From: Erysipelothrix sp.
Lineage (GTDB): Bacteria; Bacillota_I; Bacilli_A; Erysipelotrichales; Erysipelotrichaceae
Reading direction: 5' to 3'
Assembly: GCA_012727815.1 (NCBI GenBank)
Contig: JAAYGI010000005.1
Coordinates: 1-64,000, forward strand
DNA: 64,000 bases
Below, piece after piece: positions 1 through 51,899 of this stretch. Both the position numbers and the translations under genes were made by a program. Each line of letters starts with the position of its first letter. Position 1 is the first letter of the stretch. Below the pieces are notes generated by a model. That model did no database searches, was not told where the DNA came from, and saw only the letters and a list, made by a program, of their open reading frames with translations.

Positions 1-262
<262 letters not shown>

Positions 263-43648: not shown

Positions 43649-43672
43649 AAAAAAGAGGTTTCCCTCTTTATC
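43649..43672 (-). terminator. Terminator downstream of the opp region
   Basis: Minus strand AAAGAGG-GAAA-CCTCTTTTTT. Confidence 0.65.
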
Positions 43673-44802: not shown

Positions 44803-46266
44803 CTAATCCGTTTTAGTATTTTTTAAGTTACATGCTACAAAGTGTCCTGGGGATACTTCATACCAATCTTTGTCCGCTTCGCCTGTTTCTTTGAAATGGA
44901 AATCGTAAACATCATTTTCATCATATAGTGGTAATAATTCAATAACTTCTCCAGGACGTTTCATCTTAGGAATTGCATTAAGTAATTCACGTGTATATGG
45001 GTGTTTAGGATTATTAAAGATAGCTTCAGCTGGTGCAAGTTCTACTAAGTTACCAAAGTACATTACACCAATTCTATCACTTATATAACGTACAACACCA
45101 AGGTCATGCGTAATGAATAAGTATGTTAGATTGTTTTCATCTTTTAAATCTTGTAGTAAGTTTATAACTTGTGACTGAATAGAAACATCCAGTGCACTTA
45201 CAGCCTCATCAGCTACAACAAATTTAGGATTTAGAGCAAGTGCTCTTGCTATCCCAATTCTTTGACGTTGTCCACCTGAGAATTGGTGAGGATAACGGTG
45301 AATAAATGTACGGTCAAGACCACATTTTTCCATGACATCTTCAATATATGCTTGATATTCTTTACTCTTTGTATCTGAGAATAAACCGTGAGCAATTAAC
45401 CCTTCACCAATGATATTACCAACTGTAAATCTTGGATCTAATGATGAATACGGGTCTTGGAATATAATTTGTAAATCATTTCTTAGACGTCTCATCTCTT
45501 GTTTATTTAAAGATGACAGTACAACACCTTTATCGCGTTGTGATTCAAACTCTTCAAATCTTGCATGATTTTTAAGCGGCGCTTTTAATTGTTTAATTTC
45601 TGCATCTACTGCATCAAATTCAACTTGGCGTGCTTTTAAATCTACTTTCATGTCTTCAATTTTCTTTGAAGCTTTTGGATCTTTACCACTGATTGTTAAA
45701 CGGTGTTCTTCAAAAGAAATCTTTTTAACAAGTGTCGCTACTGCGGATCCTTTTTTGAATTTTTTATCTAAAACTTCGCTTACAGCATTTAAGTTTTCAT
45801 GAACTAGAAGTCCACCAACAAGTCTTAAAATATTTCCATAGTTATTTTCAAAATGAATTTTAAATAATCTTAATTCTTCAACTACTGGGTCTGCTGCGTT
45901 TGCTGCATTTTTAGCACTTGCTGTTAATTCATTTAATTTTTCTAAATCTTTATCATAAGATTTGAATGCTTTAGGAAACTTTCTATAAGTTGTACCAACA
46001 TATTCTGGCATCATCTCTTCGATTGTTTCACCATAGTAGAGGCTTACCCCTGCTGTTTGTTCATATAATTGTATTAATGTACGTCCGAATGTGGATTTTC
46101 CACATCCTGACTCTCCAACCAATCCTAGCGTTTCACCTTCAAAGATTTCCAAGGTGATATCTTTATTGGCACGGACATAGTCCGTATGTTTTTGAAACAT
46201 GCTTTCTTTTTTCAAAGGGAAATACTTTTGTAAGTTCTCCACTCTTAATAATGCTTTTTCTGCCAT
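44803..46266 (-). CDS. oppF: Oligopeptide ABC transporter ATP-binding protein OppF with internal insertion
   Basis: GESGCGKSTFGRTLIQLYEQTAG, then ~165 aa of non-ABC sequence before LRNDLQIIFQDPYSSLDPRFTV and FSGGQRQRIGIARALALNPK. Confidence 0.92.
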   Translation of the reverse strand: MAEKALLRVENLQKYFPLKKESMFQKHTDYVRANKDITLEIFEGETLGLVGESGCGKSTFGRTLIQLYEQTAGVSLYYGETIEEMMPEYVGTTYRKFPKAFKSYDKDLEKLNELTASAKNAANAADPVVEELRLFKIHFENNYGNILRLVGGLLVHENLNAVSEVLDKKFKKGSAVATLVKKISFEEHRLTISGKDPKASKKIEDMKVDLKARQVEFDAVDAEIKQLKAPLKNHARFEEFESQRDKGVVLSSLNKQEMRRLRNDLQIIFQDPYSSLDPRFTVGNIIGEGLIAHGLFSDTKSKEYQAYIEDVMEKCGLDRTFIHRYPHQFSGGQRQRIGIARALALNPKFVVADEAVSALDVSIQSQVINLLQDLKDENNLTYLFITHDLGVVRYISDRIGVMYFGNLVELAPAEAIFNNPKHPYTRELLNAIPKMKRPGEVIELLPLYDENDVYDFHFKETGEADKDWYEVSPGHFVACNLKNTKTD

Positions 46267-46284: not shown

Positions 46285-48135
46285 CTATTTTTCGTTTGCG
46301 CGTGGATCCATTGCTTCGCGTAATCCATCGCCCACTAAGTTAACTGATAATGCTGCTAACAGAACACAAAGTGCCGGTAAGACCCATTGCCACCAGTAAT
46401 ATTCAATTACTTTAGCTGATTGTGATGATGATAGCATATTTCCCCATGATGGTTCTGGCGCCATAACACCAAATCCTAGGAATGATAAACCTGATTCTGT
46501 TAATAAGTTACCTGCATAACTTAATGTCATTGTTACAATAATAATATTAAATACTGCTGGTAATATATGTTTAATAATAATTTTCGGTGTTGGTAAACCT
46601 AAAGCTTTAGCTGCAAGAACAAAGTCTTTCTCACGCTCTGCTAAGATTTGCCCACGAATCATTCTGGCAAGACCTGGCCATGATATAACCCCAAGGATTA
46701 CCATTACCATAAAGAGTCTTTGAGATTGAGTCAGAACCCCGGATAATATTGTTGATAGAGTTATTGCTAAAGGTAGGAATGGGAATGATGATACAATCTC
46801 TGCAATACGCATGAGAATATTATCAATACGTCCACCATAGAACCCAGCAATAAGACCAACAGCAACACCAATTGTTGTTGAGATTACAACTGCAATAACA
46901 CCAATGAACATTGTAATACGTCCACCATGAATTAAGCGTGTTGCAACATCGCGTCCCCACTCATCTGATCCTAATAAGAATCCTTTGAATCCAAATCCAG
47001 TTGCTTTTGCATCTTTATCAACTGCATAAGTCTGGTAGAATCCTGAGTGAATACTGTCATAAGTTTTTCCTTCTAATTTAGAAGCATCAGCTTGACTGTG
47101 AGAAGAATTTCCCCATGCTGTAACTGCTCCATCTTCAGTTAGTATTGTAAAGTGGTCTCGACCACCTACAACTTGTTTTACATCTTTACCATTAATTGAT
47201 TCTGGTACTACATAAGCTTCCTCTGAAGAAGAACCCCATGTATAAATTTCTCCATTACTATCAATTGCAAGACCTACTTCATTAGTAGCAGCAATATGTG
47301 TAACAGTTACTGAACCATCTTTAAGTTCTTCTGGTACTCTTGCTTCTAATGGTTTACCTTTTAAACCATTAACTGCAATTGTTCCATCATCTAAAAGAAA
47401 TATTGCGTTTGCAGAACTTGCTACAACATCAACAATTCTACCTTGAATGGCTTTGGGTACAATGTTTAATTTATTGTTCATTGTAGAACCCCAAATATGT
47501 GCAGTACCTTCTTTTGTAAGGATACCGGTGTAAAGTGTTTCAGCAAATACTTTTTCAATGCCTTCTTTTCTCGCTATACCTGACATTTTATCTGGAATAC
47601 TTCCTTGCTCAAATGAGTTAAGTCCCCATCCAACAAGTTTTCCATCATCAAGTAATGCGATCGCATGGCGGTCACCCGCTGCTATATCAACAACTTTACC
47701 ATTTTTAACTTCATCTGGTATTTTTTTAACATTTTCTGCATCAACACCCCAGAAGTATGTATTTCCTTCTTCACTTACTCCAAATGAGAAACTTACTCCT
47801 GATACGATATCTTTAATTCCTTCTTTTTGTAATTTTGAAGGAACTTTAAGATAGTTACGTCCTGGAGCTGTATTTCTAAGTGTAGAAGCATTGTCGTTGA
47901 AGTTTACTGGGAACATCACTGACCCACCAACAACAGTTACAGCCATTACTATAAACATGACCAAACCACCTACCGCAAGTTTATTACGGAAGAAGTTTTT
48001 AACAATCATCTCTTTAGGGCTCATTAAATCATCTTCTAATATTAATTCTTCACCACGATTAAACCCAAACAGTCTCTTAAATAATCCACCGATTGAGGAA
48101 AGTAGTTGTTGAAATATATTTTGTTTTTTGTCCAT
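46285..48135 (-). CDS. oppC: Oligopeptide ABC transporter permease OppC with RCC1-like propeller insertion
   Basis: N-terminal OppC_N and TM1; ~7 RCC1-like repeats; then LLGSDEWGRDVATRLIHGGRITMFIGVIAVVIS and the permease core. Confidence 0.93.
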   Translation of the reverse strand: MDKKQNIFQQLLSSIGGLFKRLFGFNRGEELILEDDLMSPKEMIVKNFFRNKLAVGGLVMFIVMAVTVVGGSVMFPVNFNDNASTLRNTAPGRNYLKVPSKLQKEGIKDIVSGVSFSFGVSEEGNTYFWGVDAENVKKIPDEVKNGKVVDIAAGDRHAIALLDDGKLVGWGLNSFEQGSIPDKMSGIARKEGIEKVFAETLYTGILTKEGTAHIWGSTMNNKLNIVPKAIQGRIVDVVASSANAIFLLDDGTIAVNGLKGKPLEARVPEELKDGSVTVTHIAATNEVGLAIDSNGEIYTWGSSSEEAYVVPESINGKDVKQVVGGRDHFTILTEDGAVTAWGNSSHSQADASKLEGKTYDSIHSGFYQTYAVDKDAKATGFGFKGFLLGSDEWGRDVATRLIHGGRITMFIGVIAVVISTTIGVAVGLIAGFYGGRIDNILMRIAEIVSSFPFLPLAITLSTILSGVLTQSQRLFMVMVILGVISWPGLARMIRGQILAEREKDFVLAAKALGLPTPKIIIKHILPAVFNIIIVTMTLSYAGNLLTESGLSFLGFGVMAPEPSWGNMLSSSQSAKVIEYYWWQWVLPALCVLLAALSVNLVGDGLREAMDPRANEK

Positions 48136-48146
48136 CTTATATTCTC

Positions 48147-49115
48147 CTAATCTAACTTAACTCTTGGGTCAACCAATGCATAACCTAAGTCCATCAGTAA
48201 GTTTGCAAATAAAGCAAGTACTGAGTAGAACATATTTAATGCAAGAACAATCATAAAATCTCGGTTATTGATTGCATTAATCATAACTGTGCCAATACCG
48301 TTGAATGCGAATATTTGTTCAGTAATCATAGAACCACCAAATACCGATACTAGTGACCCCGCTACTAAAGTAACAATAGGAATCAATGCATTTCTAAATG
48401 CATGACGGTAAATAACAATTTTTTCTGATAAACCTTTTGAACGTGCTGTTCTAATATAATCTTGACCTAACGCTTCAATCATTGCGTTACGCACATAACG
48501 GATAACACTTGCAAGTGAACCCAATGTTAGTGTTAATAACGGCAATGTTATAAATTTTAAATAGTTTAAGGCGTATATTCCACCCATATTCTTGGATGGC
48601 ATTCCACCAATTGGAAATAAACCTAACTTGATTGCAAATACATAAATCGTTATCATTGCAATAAAAAATGTAGGAACAGACATTCCCACTAACGAAAATA
48701 CTTGCCAGAAATTATCATAGGTAGACCCACGTTTAACTGCAGATTTAATTCCAACAGGTATCGATATCATAAAAGCAATTATCAATGATAGAATATTTAA
48801 AATTATTGTATTCATCATTGGTTCTTTTATTACATCAATTGCTGGACGTTTATATTGAGTAGACATCCCCAAGTTACCTTGAACTAATTCCCCCATCCAT
48901 TTTACGTATTGCACAGGAAGTGGTTTATCGAAACCATACTGTTCTATTACCTTTTGTCGTTCAACTTGAATCTGTTCTGGTGTCAGCTGCCCCTGTGGCA
49001 TCAATGCTCTAATAGGATCACCTGGCATTGATTTGAACATCCCAAACAACATTACAGATATTATTAGGACGACAGGTATCATTGATACCATTCTTTTACC
49101 AATATATTTTAACAT
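48147..49115 (-). CDS. oppB: Oligopeptide ABC transporter permease OppB
   Basis: MLKYIGKRMVSMIPVVLIISVMLFGMFKSMPGDP; YVRNAMIEALGQDYIRTARSKGLSEK. Confidence 0.94.
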   Translation of the reverse strand: MLKYIGKRMVSMIPVVLIISVMLFGMFKSMPGDPIRALMPQGQLTPEQIQVERQKVIEQYGFDKPLPVQYVKWMGELVQGNLGMSTQYKRPAIDVIKEPMMNTIILNILSLIIAFMISIPVGIKSAVKRGSTYDNFWQVFSLVGMSVPTFFIAMITIYVFAIKLGLFPIGGMPSKNMGGIYALNYLKFITLPLLTLTLGSLASVIRYVRNAMIEALGQDYIRTARSKGLSEKIVIYRHAFRNALIPIVTLVAGSLVSVFGGSMITEQIFAFNGIGTVMINAINNRDFMIVLALNMFYSVLALFANLLMDLGYALVDPRVKLD

Positions 49116-49233: not shown

Positions 49234-51027
49234 TTACTTAAATTTAACATCAATAATTGCACGACCGATTCCGTAGAATGGTGTTGTATTAACATCTTTT
49301 AAGTTTGCTCCATATATATCATAGTATTGGTTTGAATATAGTGGAATATTTGGAAGTTGTTCGTTCCAGTAAACTTGGAATTCTAACCAAGTTGCTGAGA
49401 ACTCGTCTTTTTGATTTGGATCTAAGTCACGCATTTTCTCTGTTAATTCATCAAACTTCGGATCATTTGTTTGAGTTGTGTTCATCCATGTTCCGTAGTA
49501 ATCTGAGTGGTATGAGTAGTATGGGTCAAACGCAACTGCGAATGTTGACGCCAGGTTGAATGAGTGGTATTTACGAGCACCTAGTGCTGCTTCTTGTTGT
49601 CCTTCATCGTTATAGAAGTAATCTAACATTACGTTGAAGTCTAAGTGATCTACAACAAGTTCAATTCCACCTTTTTCAAATCTTCCTACTAAGTCTGAAG
49701 AAATTAAATCAGTGATTGGGTTATCTTCTGAACCAGCATGGTTGATTGTAAGTTTATCGCCTTTTTCATTGTAGCGGTATCCTGTACCTGACCATGGTGC
49801 ACCAGCAGAATCAAATTTCCATTCTGTTTGGTCTAATAATTCTTTAGCTTTGTCTGTATCATAAACGTAGTTAATTAATGTTTCTTCAATTTCTTCTTCG
49901 TTTTCTTTATACATCCATTGGCCTTTACCGTATTCACCGTTTACAGTTACACCGTATCCGCCAAGAATTCCATCAACGAATTCATTTCGGTCAATTAAGT
50001 AAGCAAGTGCTTGACGTACTCTATTGTCTTTAACAGGACCAAAGTCGTTGTGGAAACCTAAGTATCCATAACCATTACGTTCGTATGTTGTAAGTCCAGC
50101 TTTACCAGCATCAGCTGCTGCTGAAGCTTTTTCAATTTTTTCACCTTCAACAACACCTGTTACGATGTCAATGTCTCCAGCTAGTACGTAGTCAACATCT
50201 AATTTAGAGTTAACGTTTTTAACTTCTACAGTTTTAACTGAAGGTTTTTTACCTTCGAAGTCACCTTTGTAGTTAGGGTCGATTTCAAGAGTAACCATTC
50301 CTTGTTCATAACTTACGAATGTATACATTCCAGCAGTTACAGTAGGAGCAAATCTTTCTTTTGTAGAAACAAATTCAGCTACTTTTCCAAGATCTGGTGT
50401 GTCGCCACCAAATGTTAATGCTCCTGTACCGTGTTCAATGTCAGCACCTGGTGCCCAAGTATGTAGTGGGTATGGTGATGCAGCTACATATGATACTTCA
50501 AAGAAGTAAGGTAGTGAATCTGCTTTAATTGTCATTGAGAATGTATGGTCATCAATTAATTTAACACCTTCGAAATTTCCGCCGTTTTCAGCATATTCTT
50601 CCCAGCCCACGATGTTACGTGTTCCTGTGTTATCTGCTTTAGCGTCTTTATATTCTTTTGATGATGTGAATAATAATGCAAAGACATAGTCTTTCGCTGT
50701 TATTGGTTCACCATCTGACCACTTAAGGTCTTTGTGTAAGTTGAAAGTATAAGTTTTTGACTTGTCATCATTAACTGTTACTTCTTCTTTCTTAACAACA
50801 GTTTTGTTAAGAACAAATACCCCATCGTCTGTATAGTCGTATGTTGGGTTACCATAGATCATGTCACGCACGATTCTATCGTATGCACTGTTTCCCCATC
50901 CTGCAACAAAGTCACCGTTTAATGGTGGTGTACCGATTGTTAGTTTTCCAGCTGGCGCTTTTGAACCACAAGCAGTTAATGTTGCTAAGACAAGAAGTGC
51001 TACAATTGCTGTAATAAACTTCTTCAT
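49234..51027 (-). CDS. oppA: Oligopeptide ABC transporter substrate-binding lipoprotein OppA
   Basis: Lipobox LATLTAC; SBP_bac_5 features (LHKDLKWSDGEPITAKDYVFAL). Start moved to MKKFITAIVALL. Confidence 0.93.
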   Translation of the reverse strand: MKKFITAIVALLVLATLTACGSKAPAGKLTIGTPPLNGDFVAGWGNSAYDRIVRDMIYGNPTYDYTDDGVFVLNKTVVKKEEVTVNDDKSKTYTFNLHKDLKWSDGEPITAKDYVFALLFTSSKEYKDAKADNTGTRNIVGWEEYAENGGNFEGVKLIDDHTFSMTIKADSLPYFFEVSYVAASPYPLHTWAPGADIEHGTGALTFGGDTPDLGKVAEFVSTKERFAPTVTAGMYTFVSYEQGMVTLEIDPNYKGDFEGKKPSVKTVEVKNVNSKLDVDYVLAGDIDIVTGVVEGEKIEKASAAADAGKAGLTTYERNGYGYLGFHNDFGPVKDNRVRQALAYLIDRNEFVDGILGGYGVTVNGEYGKGQWMYKENEEEIEETLINYVYDTDKAKELLDQTEWKFDSAGAPWSGTGYRYNEKGDKLTINHAGSEDNPITDLISSDLVGRFEKGGIELVVDHLDFNVMLDYFYNDEGQQEAALGARKYHSFNLASTFAVAFDPYYSYHSDYYGTWMNTTQTNDPKFDELTEKMRDLDPNQKDEFSATWLEFQVYWNEQLPNIPLYSNQYYDIYGANLKDVNTTPFYGIGRAIIDVKFK

Positions 51028-51162
51028 ATTTTTTCTCCTTCTTGTAACCACTTTGGCTACTGTGATATTATTATATAAAGTTTGAAACAATAAGTCAACC
51101 AAATTATCATAATATTCAAAGAAAGTTTCAAAAGTTTTCACACATTTCTGAAACAAGTTTCA

Positions 51163-51230: not shown

Positions 51231-51899
51231 TTAAGCTTTTGGTGTTGAGAACTCTAGTTTTAGATTACCTGTTTGTTCTACACCATCTAACATACCAACA
51301 AATTCAATGTAAATTACTCCACCTTGTAATACATCTTTTGCATCATAGTCGAATGTAACTTCTGCTGATGAATCATTGATTTCAAGTGCATGTAATTCAT
51401 TTAGTGCTAATATTTCTAATAGCGCTTTTGAATCTTCTACTGTAAATGTTGCTGATGTAACACCATCTTTTTCAACTTCAGTAATTTCACCTTTTGTAAA
51501 TGAAAATGCTGTTCTGAAGTCACCGTATAGTGCTGCTCCAACTTCTGCAATGTAGTCTTCTTTTGATCCTGCAAAGTCTAGACCTTCACCTTTTACAGTG
51601 TATTCGTCGCCTTTAGCTGTGATTTCAACGTCCGTGTAGTTTCCATCAATCTCAACTTTAACTTTTGCGCTTACTGTTTCATCAAGTGTAACATCACCAA
51701 AGTTATCGTATGCATAGCTTACTTTAACTTTATCTACAACACCGCTGAACGCTGTTGAAAGTGTAACTTTTAATGTAACATTTTCTTCCGTTAACATTTT
51801 GATAGCCGCTTCATGACGTGAGTCAGCAGTACCATTTGATTTTGCACTACATGCTACAAGTAACATAAGTACTAATCCACTTAATAATATTTTCTTCAT
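51231..51899 (-). CDS. Lipoprotein of unknown function
   Basis: MKKILLSGLVLMLLVAC lipobox; repetitive short beta-strand pattern. Confidence 0.75.
   Translation of the reverse strand: MKKILLSGLVLMLLVACSAKSNGTADSRHEAAIKMLTEENVTLKVTLSTAFSGVVDKVKVSYAYDNFGDVTLDETVSAKVKVEIDGNYTDVEITAKGDEYTVKGEGLDFAGSKEDYIAEVGAALYGDFRTAFSFTKGEITEVEKDGVTSATFTVEDSKALLEILALNELHALEINDSSAEVTFDYDAKDVLQGGVIYIEFVGMLDGVEQTGNLKLEFSTPKA

Follow-up and report, generated by a model that had tools for sequence, protein, structure and literature searches.

The window, that is, the whole 64,000-nucleotide stretch of Erysipelothrix sp. DNA that was analyzed, contains an operon read in the order oppA-oppB-oppC-oppF-oppD on the minus strand, from 51027 to 43847, with a Shine-Dalgarno sequence 5' of every gene (Table 1). 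The oppC gene is an unbroken open reading frame of 616 amino acids, preceded by the Shine-Dalgarno-like AGGAG and running from an ATG at 48135 to a stop codon at 46285-46287. A preliminary description of this DNA had read the frame as beginning like OppC and ending in a permease core; we found both parts, and add that the gene lies on the minus strand. For oppA, an alternative, longer frame begins at a TTG at 51156. The total number of promoter-like sites in the region was equal to the shuffled expectation.

Table 1. Features of the opp operon and of the propeller-bearing OppC in the window
Feature	Coordinates	Strand	Basis
Promoter-like site 5' of oppA, TTGACT-17-TATAAT, 11/12	51070..51098	-	Consensus match only
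oppA, lipoprotein, ~597 aa from ATG 51027	49234..51027	-	SBP_bac_5 1.6e-43; lipobox LTAC; SD sequence
oppB, 322 aa, predicted scoop region GDPIRALMPQGQLTPEQ... retained	48147..49115	-	ORF; Pfam
oppC with propeller insert, 616 aa, stop codon included	46285..48135	-	ORF; OppC_N and BPD_transp_1; PDB OppC/DppC matches
TM1 of OppC, ~residues 52-75, K/R-containing cytoplasmic stretch before it	47911..47982	-	Hydropathy peak residues 57-71; OppC_N 42-91
TM1-to-blade-1 linker, residues 76-106, conserved PGxxYLxxPxxL	47818..47910	-	Alignment; P91 invariant
Predicted seven-bladed RCC1/BLIP-II-type beta-propeller, residues 107-383	46987..47817	-	Pfam; AlphaFold2; Foldseek
Blade 1, residues 107-130	47746..47817	-	AlphaFold2 strands
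Blade 2, residues 148-171	47623..47694	-	AlphaFold2 strands; RCC1_2 over cut-off at 47605-47694
Blade 3, residues 193-216	47488..47559	-	AlphaFold2 strands
Blade 4, residues 234-257	47365..47436	-	AlphaFold2 strands
Blade 5, residues 278-301	47233..47304	-	AlphaFold2 strands; RCC1_2 search
Blade 6, residues 319-342	47110..47181	-	AlphaFold2 strands; RCC1_2 search
Blade 7, residues 361-383, family-specific FYQxYAV motif, passes almost directly into permease core	46987..47055	-	AlphaFold2 strands; conservation scoring
Junction and permease core, residues 384-616, begins KGFLLGSDEWGRD	46288..46986	-	Pfam; PDB sequence matches; alignment
oppF, 487 aa, ATPase-domain halves separated by insert	44803..46266	-	ORF; Pfam
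oppD, 313 aa	43847..44788	-	ORF; Pfam
Terminator-like hairpin 3' of oppD	43652..43669	-	Consensus match only

In a Pfam search, OppC_N matched residues 42-91 (8.8e-7, 29.2 bits against a cut-off of 23.9) and BPD_transp_1 matched residues 423-613 (5.2e-33, 114.7 bits against 26.4). NCBIfam Opp4C was the best-scoring model for the protein but, at 315.9 bits, stayed below the cut-off of 350 for an equivalog, and the protein is therefore not classed as Opp4C. OppA, OppB and two Opp ATPases are encoded alongside OppC, and the same operon was found in nearly all relatives. On this sequence evidence the protein is assigned to the OppC-type permeases of the Opp peptide importers (type I ABC), and peptide import is its predicted activity.

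The neighboring sequence has features of its own. In OppF, an insert of ~170 aa divides the ATPase domain, which is matched mainly from residue 250 on, and relatives of this protein reach 724 aa. Coupling of the OppF insert to the insert in OppC was considered and rejected, because propeller-free sisters also have a long OppF (503-516 aa). Upstream of oppA, a 222-aa lipoprotein is encoded at 51231-51899 (minus strand), with a weak likeness to the SP0191 family (19.5 bits against a cut-off of 75), and a terminator-like hairpin stands between this gene and oppA. At the window edge (1-260, minus strand), Rfam RF00177 marks the beginning (5' end) of a 16S rRNA gene.

The insert in OppC consists of RCC1-type repeats, with a regularity far above that expected by chance. 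RCC1_2 (PF13540) matched it with E=3.4e-29 and 100.3 bits against a cut-off of 22; PF25390 (RCC1-like domain) gave E=2.8e-34, yet its 119.5 bits were below its own cut-off of 150, and PF00415 reached 18.6 bits, below its own cut-off of 21.7. A PF00415 profile search of the whole genome returned no match, because the repeats fit PF13540 instead. Beyond OppC, no RCC1_2 match was found in the host genome, which is 84% complete. When the protein was compared with PDB sequences using phmmer, the core led to OppC and DppC, and the insert to RCC1, BLIP-II and UVR8.

We then modeled residues 91-390 with AlphaFold2, using an alignment that included nine distant RCC1 sequences. The model had a mean pLDDT of 79, a pTM of 0.82 and 21 strands in seven triplets, and is not independent of the family assignment because RCC1 proteins were in its alignment, though its strands agree with the repeats read in the window's OppC. 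Predicted blades of 23-24 residues start at 107, 148, 193, 234, 278, 319 and 361, at intervals of 41-45 residues, and the predicted fold is a closed ring of seven blades. The span of 46990-47817 given for the propeller in the preliminary description corresponds to residues 107-382 and thus to blades 1-7, and the seven repeats quoted there are all present. A Foldseek search of the PDB with the model placed BLIP-II chains first (E 2e-17 to 3e-16, TM up to 0.85, 23-25% identity), followed by UVR8, RCC1 and the ACR4 ectodomain. RCC1, a Ran exchange factor, and BLIP-II are taken as fold relatives only, and we claim neither function for the insert. In a full-length AlphaFold model of OppC (mean pLDDT 61, pTM 0.51), the blades recurred with higher confidence and the membrane part was too poor to give a TM arrangement.

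Pfam matches, hydropathy and alignment put the insertion site between TM1 and LGSDxxGRD, facing away from the cytoplasm. The location outside the membrane had been proposed before, and profiles, structure prediction and topology agree in assigning the propeller to the TM1-TM2 loop. In propeller-free sister OppCs, TM1 is joined to LG(S/T)DxxGRD by a short segment only, whereas in the window's OppC TM1 is followed by a linker of ~30 residues, the seven blades and GFxLG(S/T)D. About four residues separate the last propeller strand from LGSD, and of the stretches scored outside the blades none is more conserved than this junction. From the strand order we infer that both ends of the ring exit on one face, towards the membrane. 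Conservation beyond the repeat consensus peaks in blades 1 and 7 (I110, G113, Y367, Y370), by the membrane junction; these residues could contact the membrane subunits rather than OppA.

The earlier statement that OppC normally has only a short loop at this site holds for the sister OppCs but not for some Bacilli OppCs, which carry other inserts of roughly 150-250 aa at the same site. OppCs of 479-564 aa with long inserts between TM1 and TM2 were seen at L130, L131, L133, L134, L161, L162 and L173, and a Pfam scan found no match in the inserts of those Bacilli OppCs that were scanned. The TM1-TM2 loop has thus acquired unrelated sequence more than once.

Next, we analyzed the distribution of the propeller-bearing OppC. 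The propeller was searched for in 316 genomes of the order, 395 of the class and 295 of the phylum, and the permease core in 311 and 395 genomes of the order and the class, respectively. In the window's family, and counting the window, we found 53 genes for a propeller-bearing OppC, spread over 52 genomes and 16 genera; 9 of the 13 genomes of the window's genus had one. None was found in the order's other family in the search of 316 genomes; outside the order, the architecture occurred in 9 genomes of the class, which belong to four families (f6, f11, f17 and f22). All OppCs of the order whose core scored above 254 bits have open frames of 551-641 aa. A misassembly, which the preliminary description had named as grounds for refutation, or a chimeric contig was rejected, because the same architecture is present in other genomes, several of which are single-contig.

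In a tree of the permease core from which the insert was left out, all 38 propeller-bearing rows (38/38) formed one clade (96/96), and this clade held (98/94) when 19 rows, chosen as closest-scoring, other-insert or same-genus OppCs, were added. No complete member of the clade without a propeller was found. The OppC of L157 (G481) was considered as a loss of the propeller and set aside as uninformative, because it is cut by the contig end. These sequence data fit a single gain at the clade base and some spread from family to family, with no loss observed. In 38/38 proteins, six or seven blades were detectable, although total length ranged from 538 to 1144 residues, the excess lying between blades. 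At L135:8356-11787 (G370), long additions interrupt the propeller of a 1144-aa OppC, one stretch of them being coiled-coil-like. A recent foreign insert was rejected, because the overall GC of the propeller (0.357) is like that of the gene (0.355 and 0.386) and the core-only tree places the gain at the clade base; the GC3 of the propeller is lower, at 0.136. The dN/dS of the propeller was 0.04-0.09, ~1.6 to 4 times that of the core, in a rough estimate from six computable pairs (NG86) with dS often near or above saturation. At these rates, the propeller is under purifying selection.

Genome G309 carries two different propeller-OppC operons, L086 and L100, one of which is near homologues from f11 and f22; this similarity suggests transfer. 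No OppC relatives were found among viral contigs. RCC1-repeat proteins ~24% identical to the propeller are encoded on the IMG/VR viral contigs L138-L141. Plasmid records gave 16 hits to the propeller, with no permease annotation among the matches listed.

The preliminary description had placed the propeller outside the membrane, at the face where OppA docks. The OppAs of propeller operons form one clade (99/97) that matches the OppC clade. Patristic distances of propeller and OppA were correlated when the core was controlled for (partial r 0.56, 0/500 permutations) and also when both the core and OppB were (0.39, 2/500). The corresponding values were 0.17 (64/500) for OppB, with the core and OppA controlled, 0.13 (77/500) for OppD, with the core controlled, and 0.40 (1/500) for OppF. 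Co-inheritance of neighboring genes is expected regardless, and since the propeller also correlates with OppF, the correlation with OppA could stem from shared fast extracellular evolution or lineage effects. We regard the covariation of propeller and OppA beyond the core as suggestive only. Together, the matching clades and the correlated divergence lend indirect support to a propeller on which OppA would dock. The earlier idea that the propeller anchors the binding protein in place of a lipid anchor was weakened by the OppA lipobox, which is present in nearly all propeller operons. The GDP...QY region of OppB, predicted by its position to be the scoop, is retained in most of them.

The operons also differ in how their parts are combined. 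In the window's genus, G004, G008 and the second operon of G003 combine OppD and OppF of the genus lineage with a distant OppA and an OppC that lacks the propeller, which is consistent with OppA-B-C acting as a module. Set against the window's operon, L136, L169 and L171 have the OppD/OppF lineage of one genus paired with propeller-type or distant propeller-free OppABC. Gene order is A-B-C-F-D in the window's operon and A-B-C-D-F in other genera. In the trees, the window's OppA and OppC appear to come from another genus and its OppF and OppD from its own; AU tests of the core, OppB and the propeller did not reject a genus clade (p 0.08-0.17).

We propose, tentatively and with somewhat less than even confidence, that the propeller serves the lipid-anchored OppA as a rigid docking domain outside the membrane. 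In a single gain, OppC acquired an RCC1/BLIP-II-type propeller, predicted to be closed and seven-bladed, in its TM1-TM2 extracytoplasmic loop. At the outer mouth, the propeller would stand on the side of OppC, opposite the scoop motif of OppB, and would bind OppA so that loaded OppA docks in register; it may also help to seal the cavity that receives the released peptide. In the E. coli DppABCDF transporter, DppB and DppC are capped by DppA, and DppB has, between its TM1 and alpha3 helix, a scoop that fills the cleft of DppA and helps to seal the cavity (PMC12136057). By pseudo-symmetry, the TM1-TM2 loop of OppC would be the counterpart of the scoop site on the other subunit. Propellers of this kind are used to hold on to other proteins. 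BLIP-II is a secreted protein that binds another protein (PMC9218822). Docking is our first choice because of the site opposite the scoop, the BLIP-II-like fold, the stiff junction and the link to OppA; that OppA is the partner, and that its docking influences transport, is what we infer from these. With OppA lipid-anchored and the predicted scoop retained in OppB, the transporter should be able to function in the absence of the propeller, as its relatives do.

Two other roles are each unlikely in our estimate. The propeller might itself bind a peptide or another small ligand, either to capture it at a second site or to signal external conditions to the permease as an allosteric sensor. Extracellular RCC1-type propellers do occur as presumed sensors: plant CRINKLY4 receptor kinases have seven repeats of ~39 aa with three strands per blade and a presumed peptide or protein ligand (PMC4617170), and ACR4 was among our Foldseek matches. 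The window's family has RCC1 proteins of ~565-603 aa (L107:8996-10750 and L112:9415-11109, with similar matches in L108-L111 and L113); in the two that were scanned, a helix-turn-helix at the N terminus is combined with a hydrophobic stretch and RCC1 repeats, the propeller being probably extracellular. They are possible transmembrane regulators that sense the outside. The predicted cargo of the transporter, moreover, is peptides. However, no conserved polar pocket was identified, the residues most conserved beyond the repeat consensus cluster by the junction, chiefly in blades 1 and 7, and not round the ring, and a peptide site is already supplied by OppA.

Equally improbable is that the propeller grips a third surface partner and so brings the production or capture of peptides close to the importer; such a partner might be the cell wall, a secreted peptidase or a protein of host or microbial origin. 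Partner-facing surfaces often diverge fast, and the propeller diverges faster than the core; BLIP-II is itself a secreted binder, and the annotations of further RCC1-repeat proteins from bacteria describe large, probably exported proteins. But no flanking gene is common to most propeller operons, the commonest, PTS enzyme I-like, being near 13/38, and conservation peaks at the membrane end rather than in the distal blades. A tolerated passenger or passive shield that binds nothing specific, for which the insertion-prone loop of other Bacilli OppCs and the large additions accepted between blades could be cited, is less probable still, because a passenger should decay or disappear, whereas this propeller has been kept in every complete clade member, has six or seven detectable blades in 38/38 proteins and shows a low dN/dS.

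In the full-text literature searched, whose coverage leaves out most subscription journals, no account of a peptide permease with an RCC1 propeller was found, in agreement with the preliminary description, to which no characterized importer of this architecture was known; automated annotation may already show the combination of OppC and RCC1 domains. The usual picture of type I importers is that of a minimal core with a binding protein, in which only short scoop loops touch the cargo carrier. A propeller of single origin, kept across at least 16 genera and in four other families, argues for an added extracytoplasmic function that this model does not predict. It is possible, though slightly less likely than docking as such, that type I importers have here a coupling element of a new kind: a large docking platform on the C subunit that recognizes the matching OppA and controls its docking or release alongside the OppB scoop, with OppA, OppB and propeller-OppC forming a matched module exchanged between ATPase backgrounds. 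Such a role would bear on how a transporter matches its own binding protein among many paralogues.

Compared with known systems, the window's OppC shares with E. coli OppC (8z21) and DppC (8z1v), M. tuberculosis OppC (8j5q) and NCBIfam Opp4C the OppC_N TM1, the LG(S/T)DxxGRD motif, the BPD_transp_1 core and an operon with OppA, OppB, OppD and OppF. Unlike in sister OppCs, ~310 residues with the whole propeller replace the short segment from TM1 to LGTD. BLIP-II (1jtd, 3qhy, 3qi0) resembles the predicted propeller in its seven blades of three strands, its extracytoplasmic location and a TM of up to 0.85, but it is secreted, whereas the window's propeller, at 23-25% identity, is built into a membrane permease. 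The CRINKLY4/ACR4 ectodomain (7a0j) is likewise a seven-repeat RCC1-type propeller outside the membrane on a membrane protein; that protein, however, is a plant receptor kinase with disulphide-bonded blades and no transporter. The scoop of DppB/OppB (PMC12136057) is, like the propeller, an extracytoplasmic element after TM1, and it meets the substrate-binding protein. It is a helix-loop-helix of ~30 residues on the B subunit, whereas the propeller has ~280 residues, sits on the C subunit and occurs with the OppB scoop region still in place.
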